IMG/VR virus record: IMGVR_UViG_3300025636_000001 | Span: 52,878-116,877 of that record | DNA length: 64,000 nucleotides | Direction: 5' to 3' (one strand) | Source: a virus | Part shown: positions 3,001-49,645 of the stretch, one piece after another | How positions within the stretch are numbered: the stretch's first letter is position 1 | Layout of the letters: every line of letters begins with the position of its first letter | Translations under genes and position numbers: made by a program | Notes under the pieces: model-generated | What the model was told of the DNA's origin: nothing | The model's input: the letters and a program-made list of their open reading frames with translations, nothing else | The model's database searches: none

Positions 3001-5483
3001 TTTTCAGAATCCTTTAAAACTCTTATCTCATCTGACAATAAAGCTATTTCTCTTTGTATAGAATCAACAGCTAACAATGGTGTAAGGTCATTAACATCAG
3101 TACTACCTTCAACTGTTGAAAGTTTTAATGCTTGTTCAATAGCATCTCTTCTGTTTGCTGCAGATTTAAAAGATTCTTTACTAACTAGATAAAGCAAACG
3201 TCCGTGTTCTACAGCACTGTATTTTGCCAACTCTGCATTAAATTCCTTTGTACCTTTATCAAATCTTTTAAAAGCATAAGGGTTTTGTATAACATCAAAA
3301 GATGCATCATAATCTTTTTTAAAGTCCTTAACTCTATCAATTGATTTACCAATACGTTCTTTAAACTTACCAGACTCTATATCTTCTTTTTGATTAGGGT
3401 ATGCTTCTATTAAAGCTTCATCTGATAGTTTTTGTAAGTCTTCTAACTGCTCAATATATAAACCTTCAGTTCCATTAGTAACCATGTGATGAGCATTCAT
3501 AATAAAGGAATCATCCTTACTATCTCTCATACCCAACTCATCATCTTCAAACATGTGCTTATCACCGTCATCTTCAGATTGCTTTTGAGCAAAAAAGTTT
3601 AGTTTAGAAGAGCTCATAAAGTTTTGAGGATCTTTAGCTACTTCTTCAGCTATATTATTAACCTCATCTACAAAAGCATCTCTTTGTTTTTTATACTCTT
3701 CATATTGTTTAGGATCTCTTTTTTGTTGTATGTAATCAGGTAATACTTCAAAGAATAATCTTTGAGGTCCTTGAACCAAACCACCCATTAAAAATCCAGA
3801 TAAAAAAGTTTCAAAACCTTGACCTGTCATTTGACTATTAAAGCCTGATTGAAAAGCTGCTTTTTGAAGATCGTGCCTGTTTGCATTTGGGTTTTCTAAT
3901 AATAATGAATGATAATCAACAAGTCCTTGAGATACACCTTCTTGAAACATTTCCTGAAAACCTTCTCCCAATCCACCAGATGAGTATCTAAGTATCCCAC
4001 CTGCTGTATGTTTGATACTACCTTTAACACCTAAAGCTTTTAACTGATTCCAACCAATTAATTTACCAAATATTGTTTTATTAGATGTTTCTTGAAATAA
4101 TTTACCTGCTGTTTTTCCAGCAGCTCTATTCTTAACAAAGTTTTCTACTGTTGTCCTTCTAACAATATTTTTAGAATTACCAAGTTTATTAAATATTCTT
4201 CTTAGTTGTGGAGAAAATCCACCAAGTGCTTTACCTAATGCTATTTTATTAGTTACAAAAATTACAGGAGCATTAAACAAAGCAGCATTTGAAGCCGCCT
4301 TTAATGCTTCTTCATTAATTTCACTTAATTGATCTGGTGTTAATTGAGCACCTCCGTTTTCACGCATCACTCTTTCAACATTTCTACCAAACATATCTTG
4401 ATATACAAAACCTCCTTCAAGTTTTGATTCGCTTATTGTAAGGTTTAATGCTCTAGCATCTCTATAAAAAGCACCAAACCCTTTTGATGTTTTAGCTAAA
4501 TTACTTAAACCTTTTGCCGCGCTTTCTGTTGATTTAAAAGATTTTAATGTAGCTCTTAATTCTGGTGTAAAGAAATCACCTGCAAGTTTACCACCCGTTT
4601 TAGCCACGCTCCAAAAATCTTTTGCTTTATCTGCTGTTCTAAGTGTAGCTAAAACATCCTTACCAAGCCTCATTGTTCTTGTAACATCAAAAATGTTACC
4701 AATACTTTTAACACCCCTAACAAGGTTTTTACCCGTCCTTGCTAAAAACATAGGTGCCGCACCACCTTCAGTGGCAGCAGTAGCACCGGCTAATACTAAT
4801 TCTTCAGCTAAAATCTCACTAATTGTACCTAAAGTTTGAGCTGCGTTTAAATTAAGATTTATCAAAAAACCTGTTGCACCACCTCTTGTGCTTGCCCCTA
4901 ATCTATTTGCTTCAGACATAGCTGCAGCACCTTCTAAATCTGCAGATGTCCAATAACTTTCATCACCTGAAAAAAGATCACCCCAAGATCTAAATGCACT
5001 TCCAAAACCACTAGAAAAATTAGTCAACCAAGGCATTACTGATCTTTTATAATCATCCCATCCTGTTGTGTTTGCATTATAATAAGATTCCATATCCATA
5101 TCAGGTCTCCAACCTAATTTTTCAAAAGCACCCATTCTTGCATACCTATCATAACCGGAAGATTTAATTCCAGATATAATAGGGTCTTGTATTTTCATTT
5201 GCTGTTCACCTCCTAGAAAAGGAGTTGGAGCATTAAAAACTTTTTTAAATGATTCAAAATTATCAAACCCAGGTTTTGGTGAGTTATGTCTTGACATAGG
5301 TAAATCAAGAGGTATAGCAAACTGATTCATCTTTGGTGCCAAAGATTCTAAATCTTTCATGTAATCACCCATATCTTGAACGCTTTCAACGTCAAAGTCT
5401 AAGTCAAACATTTCATCAATTGGTTTAAACTGAAAATCATCTGGTTGATACATAGGATCAGTTTGGATATTTGAATCTTGCAT
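1..5483 (-). CDS. Giant virion/cargo-type protein, C-terminus beyond left edge
   Basis: An open frame runs from the ATG at 5483 (MQDSNIQTDPMYQPDDFQF) to the left edge without a stop, giving about 1827 residues of an incomplete protein. The N-terminal 400 residues are Gly/Ala-rich with amphipathic stretches (for example around 4860-4740 and 4300-4200), followed by long charged, helical segments. Near the left edge it has a basic-acidic helix IEAKKADIEKRRQEELN (about 300-352) and a partner helix INAKYDAELAALE (about 64-105) enclosing some 65 residues. It is the last gene of the late block, 23 bases after the 1022-residue gene. In crAss-like phages this place holds ejected cargo proteins and the giant virion RNA polymerase; no polymerase DxDGD motif was seen in the visible part, so the exact role is open. 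Confidence 0.85.
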   Translation of the reverse strand, partial: MQDSNIQTDPMYQPDDFQFKPIDEMFDLDFDVESVQDMGDYMKDLESLAPKMNQFAIPLDLPMSRHNSPKPGFDNFESFKKVFNAPTPFLGGEQQMKIQDPIISGIKSSGYDRYARMGAFEKLGWRPDMDMESYYNANTTGWDDYKRSVMPWLTNFSSGFGSAFRSWGDLFSGDESYWTSADLEGAAAMSEANRLGASTRGGATGFLINLNLNAAQTLGTISEILAEELVLAGATAATEGGAAPMFLARTGKNLVRGVKSIGNIFDVTRTMRLGKDVLATLRTADKAKDFWSVAKTGGKLAGDFFTPELRATLKSFKSTESAAKGLSNLAKTSKGFGAFYRDARALNLTISESKLEGGFVYQDMFGRNVERVMRENGGAQLTPDQLSEINEEALKAASNAALFNAPVIFVTNKIALGKALGGFSPQLRRIFNKLGNSKNIVRRTTVENFVKNRAAGKTAGKLFQETSNKTIFGKLIGWNQLKALGVKGSIKHTAGGILRYSSGGLGEGFQEMFQEGVSQGLVDYHSLLLENPNANRHDLQKAAFQSGFNSQMTGQGFETFLSGFLMGGLVQGPQRLFFEVLPDYIQQKRDPKQYEEYKKQRDAFVDEVNNIAEEVAKDPQNFMSSSKLNFFAQKQSEDDGDKHMFEDDELGMRDSKDDSFIMNAHHMVTNGTEGLYIEQLEDLQKLSDEALIEAYPNQKEDIESGKFKERIGKSIDRVKDFKKDYDASFDVIQNPYAFKRFDKGTKEFNAELAKYSAVEHGRLLYLVSKESFKSAANRRDAIEQALKLSTVEGSTDVNDLTPLLAVDSIQREIALLSDEIRVLKDSENVDKKILTDKEDKLVALAGYLTTLEGIYDKDSDVYDRDKMENLKTPLKSYIEAVSKGAMIDDAKLSYLVKQLVDHSYLDKRAQVYARSVSMFSDNVKFTEMSDRLSEIFLTRFNNIKADFKKSVIKGIQNQERVSLLEALAGIGSENKNGGVYADTEQSIKFMETGDTSVLTDFYTEAGKVFKSNNNELYQKIQTLIDNYNRVKFETENADKKAEEEKTDVNQKDTSSNKTSELNEYLKLTSDSPIANVEEGVDILKENESPFSKLLLDDLYLKYKQKQQLGKKTILSKADWINTKEGTNAVAGLEKIKGIWLASESNKALSEQAKNNITKSEEGFQQWILDQKDDTFVYRSLEFAGLKAADIERNETNEGLDSVVENDPLMEWADKGPGVNILKKEIASIDSIDNEDASELRETIYVLTDNNGDTLSGDLLELAGLDKAAFTNFDEAVEAFDELKKLMPDTTPFNFDGTTLVNLDVVEDVDGNKFVVLGTSTSAKNAAKLELIALDKKDLEGNDKTLASFTVEEAGFSDIYTKVEETFEGVKLSTDAVKLLPGEVNGLYPKSFGAVDADSALRLNKVLSLLSPEQISALEIRIRPNPNQSSNFLRAGDDTTENKLIVRGDKYSIEVFIPEVLREEIAKNMDGFDYPQNWDGSIGFIRNDHFRFTKNGNPKEIVKISQLEDKVIDRYITPTGVSVSELRNEMLKQDYFTLKIDEFMKDKTNAAITIADLEELGFSVKVTGGQYEDTENYDNSYDDLAQNTYDGHKVVIVNTRNVDTVGERFETDIEDPKENEAFIQKLIKDLESTPASDSKSKEGSNMFRKALSKGGYVGIIKDPLTGKIVLARLKPRKLEVDERNELFTELIEKAKEVRDSKSGQQPRQQTTNIEAKKADIEKRRQEELNNIPTKENLENKILKMSFVNGDKVVDSKYKNKLTQLLPFGGEFLGDELFALLNELDNFKEGVTNTNKINAKYDAELAALESAPQTTTKVGATKKSMSLLD

Positions 5484-40697: not shown

Positions 40698-42314
40698 TTA
40701 GAATGATCCTCCAGTTACTGGGTTTCTCATTACAATTTTTAATACTTTGGTTGGATCCTTCACCCAAATAGCTGGCATAGTTTGAGTCATATAAACTCTA
40801 TAACCATTAAAGTTACCGCTAGATGCAAAACCTTGAGTTCTTCCCATGTAGTCCATAGTACCATTTTGGTAGAACCACTTAAGTTGATTATCCCAAGATA
40901 ATTTCAATAAGTGAATGTTATCATTTCCATTTTCACTTACATCAAAGATGATAAAGCTATAAGAGCTTAAAGGACGTCCATCAATTAATGGATTCTCAAC
41001 ATCATTAGTATGTAAGTTGTCAAATGCAGGATTCAATACAAATTTAACATTTGCAAGGAAAGGAATAGTAAAGCTTGTATAAGCAAAACCAAAATCTAAA
41101 TCCATACCAGAACCTTTAACTGCACCAATTTCAGAAGCATTTTGAACTAATCCAGAACCATATACTTCATCAGCAATAGCTTTGTTGATTAATTGCATAC
41201 CACCAATACCAGTTTGTACAACTAATTGTCTTTGTGGGTCCGGTCCTTTAAATTCAACTTTACCTTGGTAGAAGTTGTATAATTCAGACTTGAACATGTC
41301 TAAAGTGAAAGAAGACTTGTTGTATACTCTCTTGAAAGAGTTATCCAACTGAGACCATAAACCTACAGATAATCTGATATCATCTGGTCCATCTTGTTTT
41401 ACTTTTCCACCTTTACCCCACATTAAGTAAGTTTCAATGTCATTTGCAATTTTGCTTAAGTGAGCAGCTTCCATATTAGTAACAAACGTTCTTGATAAAC
41501 GTCCATCTTCCATTGCTTCACGTGCACCGGCTTTACCCATTGATGCTACTAATTGCTCAATAGAAGATACAGAAGGATTTCCACTTTCATCAAAGTTTCT
41601 CCAGATTTCTGTTACAGGTACAGTACCGTCAGCATTTAAACCACCTTTGATCATAAGATCAGCACGGCTAGAAATAGAGTAATGTACATGTGCTTCAGCT
41701 CCACCAACAAAGTTGTAAAACTCACGGAATCCAGATCCAGTTTCAATGTCTGAGAATCTTTCACCATACTCACCACGCGCAGAACCTTTTCTAAAGAATT
41801 TAGTTCCTGGTGCTAAATAAGCGTTATCTAATGATACTGCACTATTATTATTTACAAGTTGTACAGTGTAGATAAATCCATCACCTGCAGGGATAATATC
41901 ATCTGCTGTAATGTATAATTCTAAACCATTATACTTGTCATAAGTAATAATGTCACCATGTCCAAAAGCTCTTTTAGACACTTTAATTTTAAAAGTAGTA
42001 CCGTCAATACCTTTTTCATCATTTGCAGGCTCAATGTCTGCAACTACAAAAGGTAGGTCTTGTGCAATTGGCGTTTGCCATTTGTACTCACCACGAGCGT
42101 TATCTACTAAGATTGTGTTCTTTCCACCAAAAGAAGCCATTTGATACAAAGGCATTTCTACCTTCTGGGTCATAGCCCAAAGATCAACTGGTCCCATATC
42201 CATAGGCTCAGAAGATCCAAGCATTTGGGTAAGGTGATAAGAATCAACGTGAGAACTTGCTTTATAAGCAGTATCTCTAAGGAAAATTCCATTGTTTAAT
42301 ACAGGAGTTGCCAT
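40698..42314 (-). CDS. Major capsid protein, 538 aa
   Basis: The protein follows terminase, portal and an acidic head protein in the usual order and is about the length of crAss-like major capsid proteins (HK97 fold). Features include an N-terminal region with AYKASSHVDSYHLTQMLGSS, a long helix-like segment (NMEAAHLSKIANDIETYLMW), and a C-terminal part with LANVKFVLNPAFDNLHTNDV and PAIWVKDPTKVLKIVMRNPV. No protease-cleavable signal is obvious. A strong terminator follows directly. The assignment rests on order, length and resemblance. Confidence 0.88.
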   Translation of the reverse strand: MATPVLNNGIFLRDTAYKASSHVDSYHLTQMLGSSEPMDMGPVDLWAMTQKVEMPLYQMASFGGKNTILVDNARGEYKWQTPIAQDLPFVVADIEPANDEKGIDGTTFKIKVSKRAFGHGDIITYDKYNGLELYITADDIIPAGDGFIYTVQLVNNNSAVSLDNAYLAPGTKFFRKGSARGEYGERFSDIETGSGFREFYNFVGGAEAHVHYSISSRADLMIKGGLNADGTVPVTEIWRNFDESGNPSVSSIEQLVASMGKAGAREAMEDGRLSRTFVTNMEAAHLSKIANDIETYLMWGKGGKVKQDGPDDIRLSVGLWSQLDNSFKRVYNKSSFTLDMFKSELYNFYQGKVEFKGPDPQRQLVVQTGIGGMQLINKAIADEVYGSGLVQNASEIGAVKGSGMDLDFGFAYTSFTIPFLANVKFVLNPAFDNLHTNDVENPLIDGRPLSSYSFIIFDVSENGNDNIHLLKLSWDNQLKWFYQNGTMDYMGRTQGFASSGNFNGYRVYMTQTMPAIWVKDPTKVLKIVMRNPVTGGSF

Positions 42315-43803: not shown

Positions 43804-46557
43804 TTATTTTTCCTTCTTAGAATCTTTAAAATCATATTTGTTTTTGTTCTCTCTTGCTATTTGTAACTGTTTGTCAGCAATATCTTTTTGAGCTGCAATT
43901 TTTTCTCTTTCTATCTGAAGTTTTGTCTGATCATTAGAATTTTTTAAAGTTGCCTGCTGTCTTTGAAAGTCCATTTTTTCTCTGTCTTTTCTATCAGCTC
44001 TAATGTTTGCCATTTCATCTTGGTAGTCATTAATCTTATTTTCATTAATGTCTGACATAGAACCATAACCAGCAGCTCTGATTTGAGCCACCTCTAAATC
44101 ATTCTGACGTTCTTTATCAGCTTCCATAAGTTCAAACTCACGTTTCAGTTTTTGTTCTTCAGCACTTGCTTTAAGTTGCTGTTCTTGCATTTCACGTTGC
44201 TGTTGCATTTCTTGCTGTCTTTGAGCTTCTTGTTTGCCCTCAGCATCTTTTAATATATCAGTTACTTCAGCAATAGAATCAGCTTTGATTATATTACCTA
44301 AATCATAAATGCTTGCTCCTGAAGTATTATTTGTAATTGCTAATTGTTTCAATTGATCTAATACAGATCTGTGATTTGTTTTAGTTGTTGCAAATACGTT
44401 AAAGTCTCTTAATAAAAGATCAGTACCATTTATAGTAAAATTAACTTTTTCAGCTTCTGAACTGATATAAGATAGTCTTACGCTTGGGTTATTGCTATAA
44501 TAGTATTGTGCAACATCAGTTCTCATTTGATGAACTCTAGGCATTAGGTGATCTGAATGCTGTGTAAAGTAAACTTCAGTTTGAGCATAAGATTGATTTA
44601 ATGCTTGCGTAACACCTGTTGCTGTTTGTTGTGCTATAGGTGCACCTAATCTTTGAGGATTAACACCAATTGCATCAAATGCTTGTTGTTTAAAATAATT
44701 AGCTAATTGAATACGTGACATTAATCTACCTGTCTGCTCCATGTTAAGAGTTTGATAATGATTAAAGTTTGTAGCATTCTCAGTATTAGTAATTGATGTA
44801 TCTAATGGTAACATGCTAAAATCTTTCATAGCAGTGTATGCCTTAGCATAATTACCTTTACCCCAATCTTCACCCATGGAGTGACGCGGTAAGGCATTTT
44901 GATCAAACATAATTATAGTACCTAACTCATCTACCAGAATATCTGCTATTTGATTATTTACCATGTTATATCCCACTTGATAAGCTTTCATTAAATCAAC
45001 TAAAGATGTTGATCTTGTGTTTCTATCTGAAAACACTCTACCTTCAACAGGTAATTTACAACCATATAAAGAATTGTCACCTTTAAATTGAAAAGGTACT
45101 CTACCTGGTTTCTTTTTATTAATACCTAAATAAATAGGATTAATATTATCACTTGCATTAGATTTCCAAAAAGCTGGAAGGTTTGGTCCTATCTTAACAC
45201 CACCCCATGTTTCATTAATCCAAATCCAATCTATATGTTCACCCTGCAATAATGTTTCTTTGTTTTTATTCTTAAACAATGAATCATCATATATAGGTTT
45301 TTCTGTTACTTTAAAAGTTTCATCAATGATTTCTTGAATGACTTCACCTGTTTCTGTTATTTTAGTAAGATGACCAACCTTACGTTGAGTCTTCCAGTAT
45401 ACAGTTGTTACTCTCATTAGAGAACCTTCACCCCAATTTGTAACGTCATCACCTTCACTTAATATGGAACTAATAACATCACCACCATATTCAGGAGAGG
45501 TGTTCCAATTAGAAACAAATTGTCTATAACCTAAACTTGGAGAACCTGTATTCCACTCATGTGATTTAGTAGCATCATAGTAAGCACCATCATTTTGATA
45601 ACCTGACACTTGATATGCACCTGATTTTGCTGGATATATTTCCTGCAAAGATTCCAGTTGTTTTTGATTCATCAAATAACCATACTTATCTATCACATCA
45701 GCAATGGTCATAAGATCCATTTTACCTGCATAATTAGATTGTGATATATATCTTGTATCTGGAGATTTTTGATAGAATGTAAGAACAGGGTTCCATAATT
45801 CTAATTCATAATCATCCTCAAGCATTCTAAAATGCCAGAACTCTCTATCCGTAATAAGCATATCACGGAAAGCACGTTCCTCTAATTCTTGCATTTTAAA
45901 TCTTTCTTCATCAACATTTAATTGATGAGATGCCCATTCCTCAACCATACTTCTATAATCCTTAGAAAAGAAGTCTTCTATTTCAGGTAATGTTTTAAGA
46001 TTTTCTGGAGAAAGTTTTTGTTGAAATTCAGGATCTTCCGGGTTGGCACCCATTTCAATCATTCTGAATAAAAGTTTTTCTTGTGCATCTGCTAATAAAT
46101 TTTCCTCAACCAATGCTCTTTTTTGTTCAAGCATTTCATTGTAAGATAAATCATCTACAGCTCTAAACTGAACTTTAGAATATCTTTTAGAAAATTCTCC
46201 TGATAGTACATTTACAACATTTGGTATGATTGGATAAAACTTAAGTTCTAGTGCTGATTCATCTTCTTTAGTTAATACATCAACTAAATCTTTATAATCA
46301 TTATCCTCTTCTACAATGTAGTCAGTTTTATCAATAATCCCTTTAGCAAGCTTATAATTCTTTAATAACTTTCTAGAATTTTGTTTTAAGAACTGCATAC
46401 CCTGCAATTCAAGCCAGTCTAAATTCCATGCAGCCCAATCTTCATTTTTCTTTTTTGAAGGTAAAAACTGTATTGGTTGTGTAAGGCTGGAAGTTGACGG
46501 ATAGCCGCTATCAGCTTTAGCACCGTTCTTCAATTGCATTGCATTAAACACTTTCAT
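43804..46557 (-). CDS. Portal protein, 917 aa
   Basis: The gene follows terminase by 2 bases. Its product has the size and layout of a crAss-like portal: a helix-rich N-terminal wing (EEDNDYKDLVDVLTKEDESA), a central LVDLMKAYQVGYNMVNNQIA helix, a GVNPQRLGAPIAQQTATGVT segment typical of portal stems, and a long Gln/Glu-rich coiled coil at the C-terminus (about 770-910: EAQRQQEMQQQREMQEQQLK). The extended coiled coil could form a barrel into the capsid. DNA passes through the dodecameric ring during packaging and ejection. Confidence 0.88.
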   Translation of the reverse strand: MKVFNAMQLKNGAKADSGYPSTSSLTQPIQFLPSKKKNEDWAAWNLDWLELQGMQFLKQNSRKLLKNYKLAKGIIDKTDYIVEEDNDYKDLVDVLTKEDESALELKFYPIIPNVVNVLSGEFSKRYSKVQFRAVDDLSYNEMLEQKRALVEENLLADAQEKLLFRMIEMGANPEDPEFQQKLSPENLKTLPEIEDFFSKDYRSMVEEWASHQLNVDEERFKMQELEERAFRDMLITDREFWHFRMLEDDYELELWNPVLTFYQKSPDTRYISQSNYAGKMDLMTIADVIDKYGYLMNQKQLESLQEIYPAKSGAYQVSGYQNDGAYYDATKSHEWNTGSPSLGYRQFVSNWNTSPEYGGDVISSILSEGDDVTNWGEGSLMRVTTVYWKTQRKVGHLTKITETGEVIQEIIDETFKVTEKPIYDDSLFKNKNKETLLQGEHIDWIWINETWGGVKIGPNLPAFWKSNASDNINPIYLGINKKKPGRVPFQFKGDNSLYGCKLPVEGRVFSDRNTRSTSLVDLMKAYQVGYNMVNNQIADILVDELGTIIMFDQNALPRHSMGEDWGKGNYAKAYTAMKDFSMLPLDTSITNTENATNFNHYQTLNMEQTGRLMSRIQLANYFKQQAFDAIGVNPQRLGAPIAQQTATGVTQALNQSYAQTEVYFTQHSDHLMPRVHQMRTDVAQYYYSNNPSVRLSYISSEAEKVNFTINGTDLLLRDFNVFATTKTNHRSVLDQLKQLAITNNTSGASIYDLGNIIKADSIAEVTDILKDAEGKQEAQRQQEMQQQREMQEQQLKASAEEQKLKREFELMEADKERQNDLEVAQIRAAGYGSMSDINENKINDYQDEMANIRADRKDREKMDFQRQQATLKNSNDQTKLQIEREKIAAQKDIADKQLQIARENKNKYDFKDSKKEK

Positions 46558-46559
46558 AC

Positions 46560-48749
46560 TTATCTAAAATTTTTATATGCTGATCTTTTTATTTTTGGAC
46601 CACCGTTAGCAGTTTTAATCCTTCCAATATTCTTGAACGGACTATACTTTAATTTATGGAATTTTTTTGAATTATCCAAGTAATCACCTGATTCAGATTC
46701 ACTTCTTCTTAAATAACCTCTATTTGATTCTTGTATTCTTACAAAAGCAACCAATGCTGCAAAAGTTACAAGCCTATCCACGTTGAGTCCTGGATAGTAT
46801 GCAAGCATTTCTTTTAATAACATTGGATCTGGTATTCTTTCTATACCTAAAGTTGTTTTTATTATGTTACCATCATCATCTGTTTCTTGATCTATTTCTT
46901 CTCTAAGAAATTCAATAGCATAAGAAATTAAATGATTTTTAAATAATGTACCTGTATTTTTCCAACCATATTCTTGATAAACAGATTTGTTTGAACCAAG
47001 ATCTTTTAAAAACATAATCTGTTGTTTTGGCACAAGATACTTTTGTTTCTTTTTAGATATCATATGTTGTATAAATAATGATATATTATTCTCAACAATA
47101 GTCCAAGCATTATACCATTCAACAATTAATTCTAATTGCTGATGTGTTTTATTAATATCATCATATCTACCACACCAAGATGCTACAATTTTACCAGGTT
47201 CTATAAAACGTTCAATACCCTGGGGACCTTCTCTTGTTATTTCAACAGAGTTCTTATATACAATAATACTACACAATGAATCTGAAGTAGTTGTCTTACC
47301 TTCTGATACAGGGTCAATAGATGCATAATAGGCACCAAACTCAGGATTAGAAACAGGTCTTTCCCATGTAACCAAACATCCAGTTTTATCTTGTGCTTTT
47401 TTACTTAATGGGAATTCAGATATTGGTAACTTATTTGATCTTTTAGCAAGAATACCATCACTAACTCTTTCAAGTTCTATATGCTCATATGCATATTCTT
47501 TCTCTTCAATTCTTTTTTGTTGTTGTGATAAAACACCTTGAGGAAATACTGATTCTTTTCTATAAGCAAAAGCTTCAGCAATATTAGTTGGTTTCTGAGA
47601 AATACGTAATTGATATTGCTCAGGACTTAAATCAGCTTTCCATTGAGCTCTTTCTGCTTTTATTGCATCAAGTGCTTCTTGTATCTTGGAGTTACCGTAA
47701 TTATCAATATAAGGGGGCATAGACCATTGCTCTGGAATAAATAAACCAGCTAGTCCAATAGTACCATCTTTGTCCATTAAATCAGTTTCTACAGCATATA
47801 TATCATTTGCTGTAGGATTCAATATCATTTGTTTCAAAGGCTCACACTGATCAAGATCCCCTACGGAACCTGCAGCTATAAACATACCTGTTGTTACCAT
47901 ACCAGAAGACATTGCAGGTCTAAGGTACTCATATGTTTTATCCATTTTAGGTGCAATACCAGCCTCTTCATGAAAAAAGATTGTTGTAGGTCCACCAACA
48001 CCTGTTGTAGCATTCTTCTCAAAAGATGCACCTTGTATCTTAGACTTAAGACCTCTAGATGTTTTTCTATTACCTACTTTTACTTCAATCTGCTGTTGCC
48101 ATAATAAAACCTTTTCAGGATTACTAGGTCTATACCAAGCAGTATGCTCATTTAAAAATGTTTTGTATTCATCAAGAAACTTCCATGAACCTTTATCATT
48201 AATGTAATCCTTTAGAGAAGCACCTATCTTACAAGTACTACCCTCTTCAAACCAATATGTATTAATGATCTTACCCATGTGAAAGTAAGAAGATGCAATC
48301 TGACGTTTCTTTAAAATAGCAGAATGCTTATAACTAAGCTCAGCAAGCATCTCATATAAAGCCATATGATATTGTGCATCTCTGACTTTAGCAAATCCAT
48401 ACTTCTTTTCCTCTTTATCATAGATGGGTAAGAAGTTTAACCACATGTAATAATCACGTGTTAAATACCAAGTAAGGGGCCCATCTTTATAGATAACCCC
48501 CACACGGCATTTGTTTTTTTGATCATTCCAGTAACTTATAAAATCTGTTGATCTAAAAGGAGCTGAACAATAAAATCCATCTTTGTTAAAATTAATAGCC
48601 TCTTGGTTAAAAATTAAAGATGTATCATTAAACTCATACAAACCAGGTTCTTTAAAAATTGATAATACAAATTCTTTAAAACTATCTCTTGTATCAAACT
48701 TGGTTTCAGTCCATTTACCAGATTCATATGTTGGAATGGAAATATACAT
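46560..48749 (-). CDS. terL: Terminase large subunit, 729 aa
   Basis: This is the DNA-packaging motor. The ATPase part has a degenerate Walker A region around 147-154 (KKRQIASS), a Walker B with the catalytic acid, IFFHEEAG (257-264), and a coupling segment GSVGD (294-298). The nuclease part begins at about 470 with YYASIDPVSEG, D479 being the likely first metal ligand. An adaptive lid-type SQKPTNIAEAFAYRKESVFP stretch (384-403) lies between, as in phage terminases. The start overlaps the stop of the GroES-like gene by one base (TAATG), so translation is coupled. No small terminase subunit is recognisable. Confidence 0.93.
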   Translation of the reverse strand: MYISIPTYESGKWTETKFDTRDSFKEFVLSIFKEPGLYEFNDTSLIFNQEAINFNKDGFYCSAPFRSTDFISYWNDQKNKCRVGVIYKDGPLTWYLTRDYYMWLNFLPIYDKEEKKYGFAKVRDAQYHMALYEMLAELSYKHSAILKKRQIASSYFHMGKIINTYWFEEGSTCKIGASLKDYINDKGSWKFLDEYKTFLNEHTAWYRPSNPEKVLLWQQQIEVKVGNRKTSRGLKSKIQGASFEKNATTGVGGPTTIFFHEEAGIAPKMDKTYEYLRPAMSSGMVTTGMFIAAGSVGDLDQCEPLKQMILNPTANDIYAVETDLMDKDGTIGLAGLFIPEQWSMPPYIDNYGNSKIQEALDAIKAERAQWKADLSPEQYQLRISQKPTNIAEAFAYRKESVFPQGVLSQQQKRIEEKEYAYEHIELERVSDGILAKRSNKLPISEFPLSKKAQDKTGCLVTWERPVSNPEFGAYYASIDPVSEGKTTTSDSLCSIIVYKNSVEITREGPQGIERFIEPGKIVASWCGRYDDINKTHQQLELIVEWYNAWTIVENNISLFIQHMISKKKQKYLVPKQQIMFLKDLGSNKSVYQEYGWKNTGTLFKNHLISYAIEFLREEIDQETDDDGNIIKTTLGIERIPDPMLLKEMLAYYPGLNVDRLVTFAALVAFVRIQESNRGYLRRSESESGDYLDNSKKFHKLKYSPFKNIGRIKTANGGPKIKRSAYKNFR

Positions 48750-49033
48750 TACTCTTCTTCTTTTAAAATTGCATGAATATCCCCAACATTAATAAGTAAA
48801 TGCATAGCACCCTCATGCTCCATTTCAGTTGGAACACAGTATTCAGCATATTGTATTAAATCACCTTCATTAATTTCAGTAACTTCTGTACCTACACCAA
48901 TAACATAAGCTTTATACTCTTTTTGTATTGCTGAGTCTGGTATAATAATGTTAGTTCCCGGTACTAATCTTGTTACTTCTTTTGGTTTTACTAAAACCTT
49001 TTTCCCTACTGGTATTACTTTTGTTTTTATCAT
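48749..49033 (-). CDS. GroES-like co-chaperonin (Cpn10 family), 94 aa
   Basis: Length and sequence fit the 10-kDa chaperonin: VIPVGKKVLVKPKEV at the start, then GTNIIIPDSAIQKEYKAYVI where GroES has its mobile loop and roof, VIGVGTEVTEINEGDLIQYA, and an end HLLINVGDIHAIL that matches the family's terminal strand. The protein would cap host GroEL and adapt it to a phage protein, as T4 gp31 does for its capsid protein. It sits directly before terminase with translational coupling (one-base overlap). The mobile loop lacks the exact GGI(V/M)L motif (here PGTNIII), so binding specificity may differ. Confidence is high for family, moderate for function. Confidence 0.85.
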   Translation of the reverse strand: MIKTKVIPVGKKVLVKPKEVTRLVPGTNIIIPDSAIQKEYKAYVIGVGTEVTEINEGDLIQYAEYCVPTEMEHEGAMHLLINVGDIHAILKEEE

Positions 49034-49126: not shown

Positions 49127-49645
49127 TCAAAGTTGATCATAAGCTAATCCTGCACCACCTCTAACTGAACTTTCTTGTTCTTCCTTCATATCACTAAATG
49201 CACCCTTATAAGAATTTCTTATTTGTTCAAATTTAGCGGCAGCGTTTACCATAGAATTAATGTTACCATCTCTACCATGTTCTATTGCTGTAGTTTCCAT
49301 GTATCTAGCCAATCTATCAAGCATTGATTTAATACCAACATAAGCTCTATATGTAGGTGTTTCATAAAGCTTTCTAGCCATCTCTAAAGAATACCTAATT
49401 TTAGCATCTTCTGTTGATTCTTCAAGACCTATTTCTTCAATTATAATATCTTCTTTCTCATGCTCTGGTAAATTAAAGAAAGGATTTAAATCTGGATTAG
49501 GACAAGACATGTAAAATAAATATTGATAAACACTCATGTATGTATCAGGATATTCATCCATTAATTCTTTTAAAAACTTTAAAGTATAACAATGTTCTGT
49601 TGGTATAACTTTACCGTTTTGTATATCAAATAATCTTACTATCAT
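49127..49645 (-). CDS. Conserved protein upstream of terminase, 172 aa
   Basis: Begins MIVRLFDIQNGKVIPTEHCY and includes YMSVYQYLFYMSCPNPDLNP and an internal helix YRAYVGIKSMLDRLARYMET. I associate this sequence with a conserved crAss-like protein near terminase. Its position and size could suit a small terminase subunit or packaging factor, but no DNA-binding motif is clear. The start overlaps the nuclease gene's stop by one base (TAATG). Confidence 0.78.
   Translation of the reverse strand: MIVRLFDIQNGKVIPTEHCYTLKFLKELMDEYPDTYMSVYQYLFYMSCPNPDLNPFFNLPEHEKEDIIIEEIGLEESTEDAKIRYSLEMARKLYETPTYRAYVGIKSMLDRLARYMETTAIEHGRDGNINSMVNAAAKFEQIRNSYKGAFSDMKEEQESSVRGGAGLAYDQL

Follow-up and report, generated by a model that had tools for sequence, protein, structure and literature searches.

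A GroES-like co-chaperonin gene directly upstream of the terminase gene in a lineage of crAss-like phages

Why does a phage keep a gene for a GroES-like lid immediately ahead of the gene for its large terminase subunit, and which GroEL and which client protein would such a lid serve? This question is raised by a small minus-strand gene in the virus record IMGVR_UViG_3300025636_000001, from whose 116,877 bases we analyzed one stretch of 64,000 bases (the window). Overall, the co-chaperonin gene is real and well conserved, and genes of this kind near terminase are already annotated in gut crAss phages. The features discussed below are collected in Table 1.

Table 1. Positions of the co-chaperonin gene, two of its segments and neighboring genes in the window
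Feature	Position	Strand	Size	Basis or remark
Cpn10/GroES-like co-chaperonin	48749..49033	-	94 aa, 10.4 kDa	Pfam PF00166, PHROG 3188, predicted fold, purifying selection
Mobile-loop segment KEVTRLVPGTNIIIPDSAIQK	48920..48982	-	residues 18-38	GroES alignment; hydrophobic III(P) GroEL-docking tripeptide kept
Shortened roof TEVTEINE	48866..48889	-	residues 49-56 (8 residues)	between two conserved glycines
Terminase large subunit (TerL)	46560..48749	-	729 aa	PHROG 6681, 1.8e-60; start overlaps Cpn10 stop
Portal protein	43804..46557	-	917 aa	PHROG 6547, 6.4e-94
Major capsid protein (proposed client)	40698..42314	-	538 aa, 59.6 kDa	Pfam Crass_capsid, 2.2e-32
Conserved gene upstream of Cpn10	49127..49645	-	172 aa	hhalign 97% (Suoliviridae), 92% (Steigviridae)

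Identity and setting of the co-chaperonin gene

The 94-residue product belongs to the Cpn10 family of co-chaperonins and is a phage-encoded lid of the GroES type. In a Pfam profile search it matches PF00166 (Cpn10) with an E value of 2.8e-10 and a score of 40.5 bits, above the cut-off of 21.1, and its residues 5-89 span profile positions 1-92 of 93, which is the whole domain. Matches were also obtained to the PHROG GroES family (3.6e-9) and, with phmmer, to solved GroES chains (1.6e-6 and weaker). The first-pass annotation of this DNA had assigned the product to Cpn10 on the motifs IIIPDSA, VIGVG, INEGDLIQYAEY and VGDIHAIL, all of which are present, and had proposed a structure prediction against GroES as a check. 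The AlphaFold2 model was built from 52 aligned rows, one of which (L007), entered from a wrong start, covers the domain incompletely and includes a tail, with no effect on the conclusions, and it has a mean pLDDT of 79 and the GroES beta-barrel fold. With this model as the query, Foldseek returned GroES/Cpn10 chains on top (best 2.2e-6), and VIA-align gave Z scores of up to 11.3 with GroES chains, the best matches, and of 8.0-9.2 with T4 gp31. The whole barrel is conserved, and the dN/dS of 0.12-0.24 denotes purifying selection. Thus family membership, fold, selection and conservation together rule out a chance or artefactual reading frame. The annotation was also right that the Cpn10 stop overlaps the terminase start by one base, as the TAA of Cpn10 and the ATG of TerL have base 48749 in common. 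It did not give the strand of the gene; the rest of its description is accurate.

Read along the minus strand, the gene order is PD-(D/E)XK exonuclease, 172-aa protein, Cpn10, TerL, portal, a 428-aa protein and a crAss-type major capsid protein, and with its crAss terminase and portal PHROGs and its Crass_capsid match the genome reads as crAss-like. The 172-aa protein has homologues in the Suoliviridae, where the gene immediately precedes TerL, and in the crAss-like phages of the Steigviridae, where it is gp16. It is conserved near TerL in three lineages of crAss-like phages, has no named function, and by position only is a candidate small terminase. As for the capsid protein, its match to Crass_capsid is confined to profile positions 71-192 and 279-493 with a divergent part between them, and it is longer than in the relatives that were measured.

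The coupling of Cpn10 to terminase extends across the clade. We collected 160 loci, some of which overlap on one contig, from IMG/VR searches with Cpn10, TerL and a Cpn10 profile plus two genome contigs. Both genes are present in 153 of the 160, and in all 94 distinct copies Cpn10 directly adjoins TerL on its upstream side, as the first-pass annotation had described for the single locus. Spacing was measured in 82 loci, and in 80 of them the two genes overlap, usually by 1 or 8 bases. Cpn10 is missing from seven loci. In six of these, no more than about 260 bases separate the TerL start from the end of the contig, and the locus is read as truncated there. The seventh, in the relative L024, is a true loss of Cpn10 with TerL intact; the place directly before TerL is taken there (4447-4692) by an unrelated 81-aa gene of the clade that sits near Cpn10 in relatives. 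In the TerL tree, which is rooted at the midpoint only, a long branch (2.47) separates the clade from the sampled Suoliviridae, Steigviridae, Intestiviridae and Flavobacterium-phage rows, and in the Cpn10 tree (90 columns) the clade is monophyletic (0.98).

Mobile loop and roof hairpin

The mobile loop had initially been thought to differ from that of bacterial GroES in a manner hinting at a changed GroEL partner or client. This suggestion did not survive alignment. Specifically, the loop reads KEVTRLVPGTNIIIPDSAIQK in the phage protein and APAEEKTIGGIIIPDTAKEK in B. finegoldii, beside a 20-letter segment in E. coli, and the phage docking stretch NIIIPDSA matches GIIIPDTA of Bacteroides GroES, with the phage III occupying the IVL site of the GroES tripeptide. 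Since the docking stretch is that of Bacteroidota GroES, we rejected the idea that a divergent loop denotes a new GroEL. Part of the phage family has a one-residue insertion just ahead of the docking stretch and a changed GG, features that, as judged from the alignments, do not point to a new partner. The lengthening of the loop seen in gp31 (24 aligned residues) is absent from the phage protein, which has 21, as compared with 20 for GroES. In the structural model, pLDDT is lowest (55-60) over residues 21-40, the place of the mobile loop in GroES, as is expected of a disordered loop.

A clearer departure from GroES than the mobile loop, and one that the first-pass annotation missed, is the short roof. 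We measured the roof as the stretch enclosed by the glycines on either side of the E. coli hairpin (G44 and G62). By this measure the roof is 8 residues long in the window protein and in 60 of the 63 distinct family members, and the model of the window protein has no strand pair between E41-47 and E59-62. The roof also has 8 residues in crAss001 Gp15, cr116_1 and SJC03. It has 10 in gp31, where the roof loops are described as absent and the chamber as larger (PMC6318259), and 17-21 in three other phage lids. Among cellular proteins, the roof has 17 residues in E. coli GroES, as in all 32 Pseudomonadota sequences sampled, and 12 in four sequences from Bacteroidales; the Bacteroidota GroES compared with the window protein (from B. 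finegoldii, P. distasonis, P. massiliensis and Prevotella) have 12 as well. In having a shortened roof the window protein resembles gp31-type co-chaperonins, but this property is not diagnostic. The short roof was at first convincing as a phage signature, but this view was weakened by 14 of 25 Campylobacterota GroES that also have a roof of 8 residues, so that a short roof does not speak against an ordinary role in the cell. Taken alone, a missing roof hairpin is no marker of a capsid-folding lid.

Related lids in other phages and in bacteria

The position of Cpn10 by the terminase gene had been called unfamiliar for crAss-like genomes. However, Gp15 of the isolate crAss001, encoded four genes upstream of TerL, is already annotated as 'putative 10kDa chaperonin', and on finding it and its relatives we rejected the idea of a new genomic position. 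Gp15 has homologues in 50 phage records, and the neighborhood survey that had been proposed as a check, here run on the clade loci and on Steigviridae examples, located the homologue two to four genes before TerL or a TerL-sized gene in cr112_1, cr116_1, cr126_1, cr111_1, cr108_1 and DAC17; in cr111_1 and cr108_1 a GroEL gene lies upstream too. A profile of the Steigviridae proteins aligns with the clade profile at an hhalign probability of 97.5% (pairwise E 7.3e-12), as compared with 0.1-0.2% for unrelated control profiles. The main text of three principal papers on crAss001 and crAss-like genomes makes no mention of the lid.

The Steigviridae 10kDa chaperonins (crAss001 Gp15, cr112_1, cr116_1, cr126_1 and DAC17) are homologous to the window Cpn10, lie like it in the head block near TerL and, in the two that were measured (crAss001 and cr116_1), share its 8-residue roof. 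However, there are several differences. The Steigviridae proteins have about 126-154 residues and carry an additional loop as well as a C-terminal extension, and the two that were scored do not reach the Pfam cut-off that the window protein exceeds. Their gene order is HU, Cpn10, gp16-like, gp17-like, TerL as opposed to gp16-like, Cpn10, TerL in the window, so that their Cpn10 lies across the gp16-like gene from the window position and has no direct coupling to TerL. Some members also have a phage GroEL close by. Searches with PF00166 detected no Cpn10 in the tested Suoliviridae, Intestiviridae and Fipvunavirus records, nor in phi14:2, which is a GroEL carrier. Capsid size as the factor deciding which crAss families carry Cpn10 was considered and found unsupported, as cr130_1, which is without Cpn10, has a capsid frame of 505 aa against 506 in crAss001. 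Thus carriage of the lid does not follow capsid size across crAss families, and size by itself does not explain why a phage has one.

Other phage lids resemble the window protein to varying degrees. T4 gp31 and RB49 CocO share with it the Cpn10 fold, the lack of a full roof hairpin and the usual reliance on host GroEL, and the capsid protein is about 56 kDa or more in T4-type phage and in the window phage alike. Nevertheless, gp31 has no close sequence kinship with the window protein, its mobile loop is longer (24 versus 21 residues), and T4 gene 31 does not adjoin terminase. The function of gp31 is also proven, whereas the window Cpn10 is known from its sequence and predicted fold. Bacteroidota GroES resembles the window protein in size and in its near-identical docking stretch, IIIPD(T/S)A, but differs from it in the roof (12 versus 8 residues) and in having groEL next door.

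Phage Cpn10 proteins are likewise found in phages of Bacteroidota in the groES-groEL pairs of SJC03 and immuto and in the Cpn10 plus GroEL of phi38:1, and a study of marine Bacteroidetes phages has reported GroEL in a group to which phi38:1 and IAS virus belong (PMC5332604). Unlike the window, SJC03, immuto and phi38:1 have a phage GroEL nearby and no adjoining terminase in the stretches inspected. The pair in Bacteroides phage SJC03 (8995-9258 and 9272-10894), whose GroES has the 8-residue roof given above, is located at the genome end and is annotated as hypothetical, and the same GroES homologue is present in five DAC phages (DAC16, 19, 20, 22 and 23).

Partner, client and host

In regards to the partner, 9 of 11 near-complete clade genomes carry Cpn10 without GroEL, which makes host GroEL the natural partner. 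The 116,877-base record itself holds one Cpn10 and no GroEL gene. The other two near-complete genomes (those of L083 and L145) encode a full-length GroEL far from Cpn10 (G007:91476-92969 and G109:113897-115381), about 60% identical to B. finegoldii GroEL.

We consider it rather likely, though far from assured, that the phage lid acts on host GroEL late in infection and helps to fold head proteins, among which the capsid protein is the likeliest client. Specifically, Cpn10 would be made together with the late head-assembly block, would form a heptamer, and would displace host GroES on host GroEL, where it would give an open or roomier dome that aids the folding of phage head proteins. The major capsid protein (59.6 kDa) would be the likeliest client because TerL (84.1 kDa) and portal (105.9 kDa) appear too big for enclosure. 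A role in capsid folding is plausible by analogy with gp31, which GroES cannot replace in folding the capsid protein gp23 (PMC3012670), a protein whose mass of about 56 kDa lies just beyond what the GroEL-GroES cage can hold (PMC6318259). The tight conservation of the gene suggests that the lid matters for head assembly, and its overlap with TerL is more readily read as close co-expression within a morphogenesis operon than as a sign of TerL being the client. Against this whole reading stand the short roof, which is not phage-specific, the capsid size, which does not separate crAss-like phages with the lid from those that lack it, and the absence of Cpn10 from L024.

It is possible, although on balance unlikely, that the protein is instead a general substitute for GroES that raises the chaperonin capacity available during infection to a wide range of proteins, both host and phage, in which case there would be no special capsid client and the short roof would be meaningless. 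The Bacteroidota-like mobile loop, the short roof of cellular Campylobacterota GroES, and the ability of gp31 itself to replace GroES for E. coli proteins (PMC3012670) all agree with a general substitute. However, every copy found has a fixed place in the head-assembly block before TerL, host GroES would normally be available, and the roof is shorter than in any of the four Bacteroidales GroES sampled.

Takeover or inhibition of the host chaperonin, with the lid binding host GroEL to redirect or stop host folding, would also need an intact mobile loop and would agree with the usual lack of a phage GroEL. We regard this as quite improbable given that the gene is within the packaging and head block and not away from it, that the whole Cpn10 barrel is kept, and that two relatives have their own GroEL, which suggests productive folding. 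There is likewise only a slim chance that terminase or portal is the client. This would account for the translational coupling implied by the stop/start overlap in nearly all loci measured, but the masses of both proteins are beyond the understood capacity of the closed GroEL cage, the crAss001 Cpn10 is encoded four genes away, and L024 keeps TerL without Cpn10. Finally, a virion or scaffold part of Cpn10 fold that no longer works with GroEL, which the structural neighbor genes might suggest, is barely credible for a small single Cpn10 domain that keeps the GroEL-docking tripeptide.

The Cpn10 gene described here extends the known range of a phage gene, that for a GroES-like lid, to a deep crAss-like lineage from public virus collections. 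A broader reading, which we hold to be doubtful, is that environmental and gut crAss-like lineages have in common a head-assembly chaperonin module near terminase, with an open-dome lid and an optional GroEL, that would have been tuned, in the manner of T4 gp31 but separately from it, to give the crAss capsid protein a larger GroEL cage. If this were true, some crAss-like families would need a phage lid for capsid folding and others would not. Since only some crAss-like families have the lid and a homologue is present in culturable Steigviridae, the dependence of capsid folding on the lid is testable.

As for the host, the clade contigs L102 and L103 are in MAG bins assigned to Pseudomonadales and Campylobacteraceae. 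These assignments contradict each other, so we did not take a host from them, and the placement of clade contigs in these bins is probably a binning error. A Shine-Dalgarno-like site was found upstream of 1 of the 29 genes checked, and near absence of Shine-Dalgarno sites is usual in Bacteroidota. The host may thus belong to Bacteroidota, a putative assignment that fits the scarcity of these sites better than do the MAG bins.
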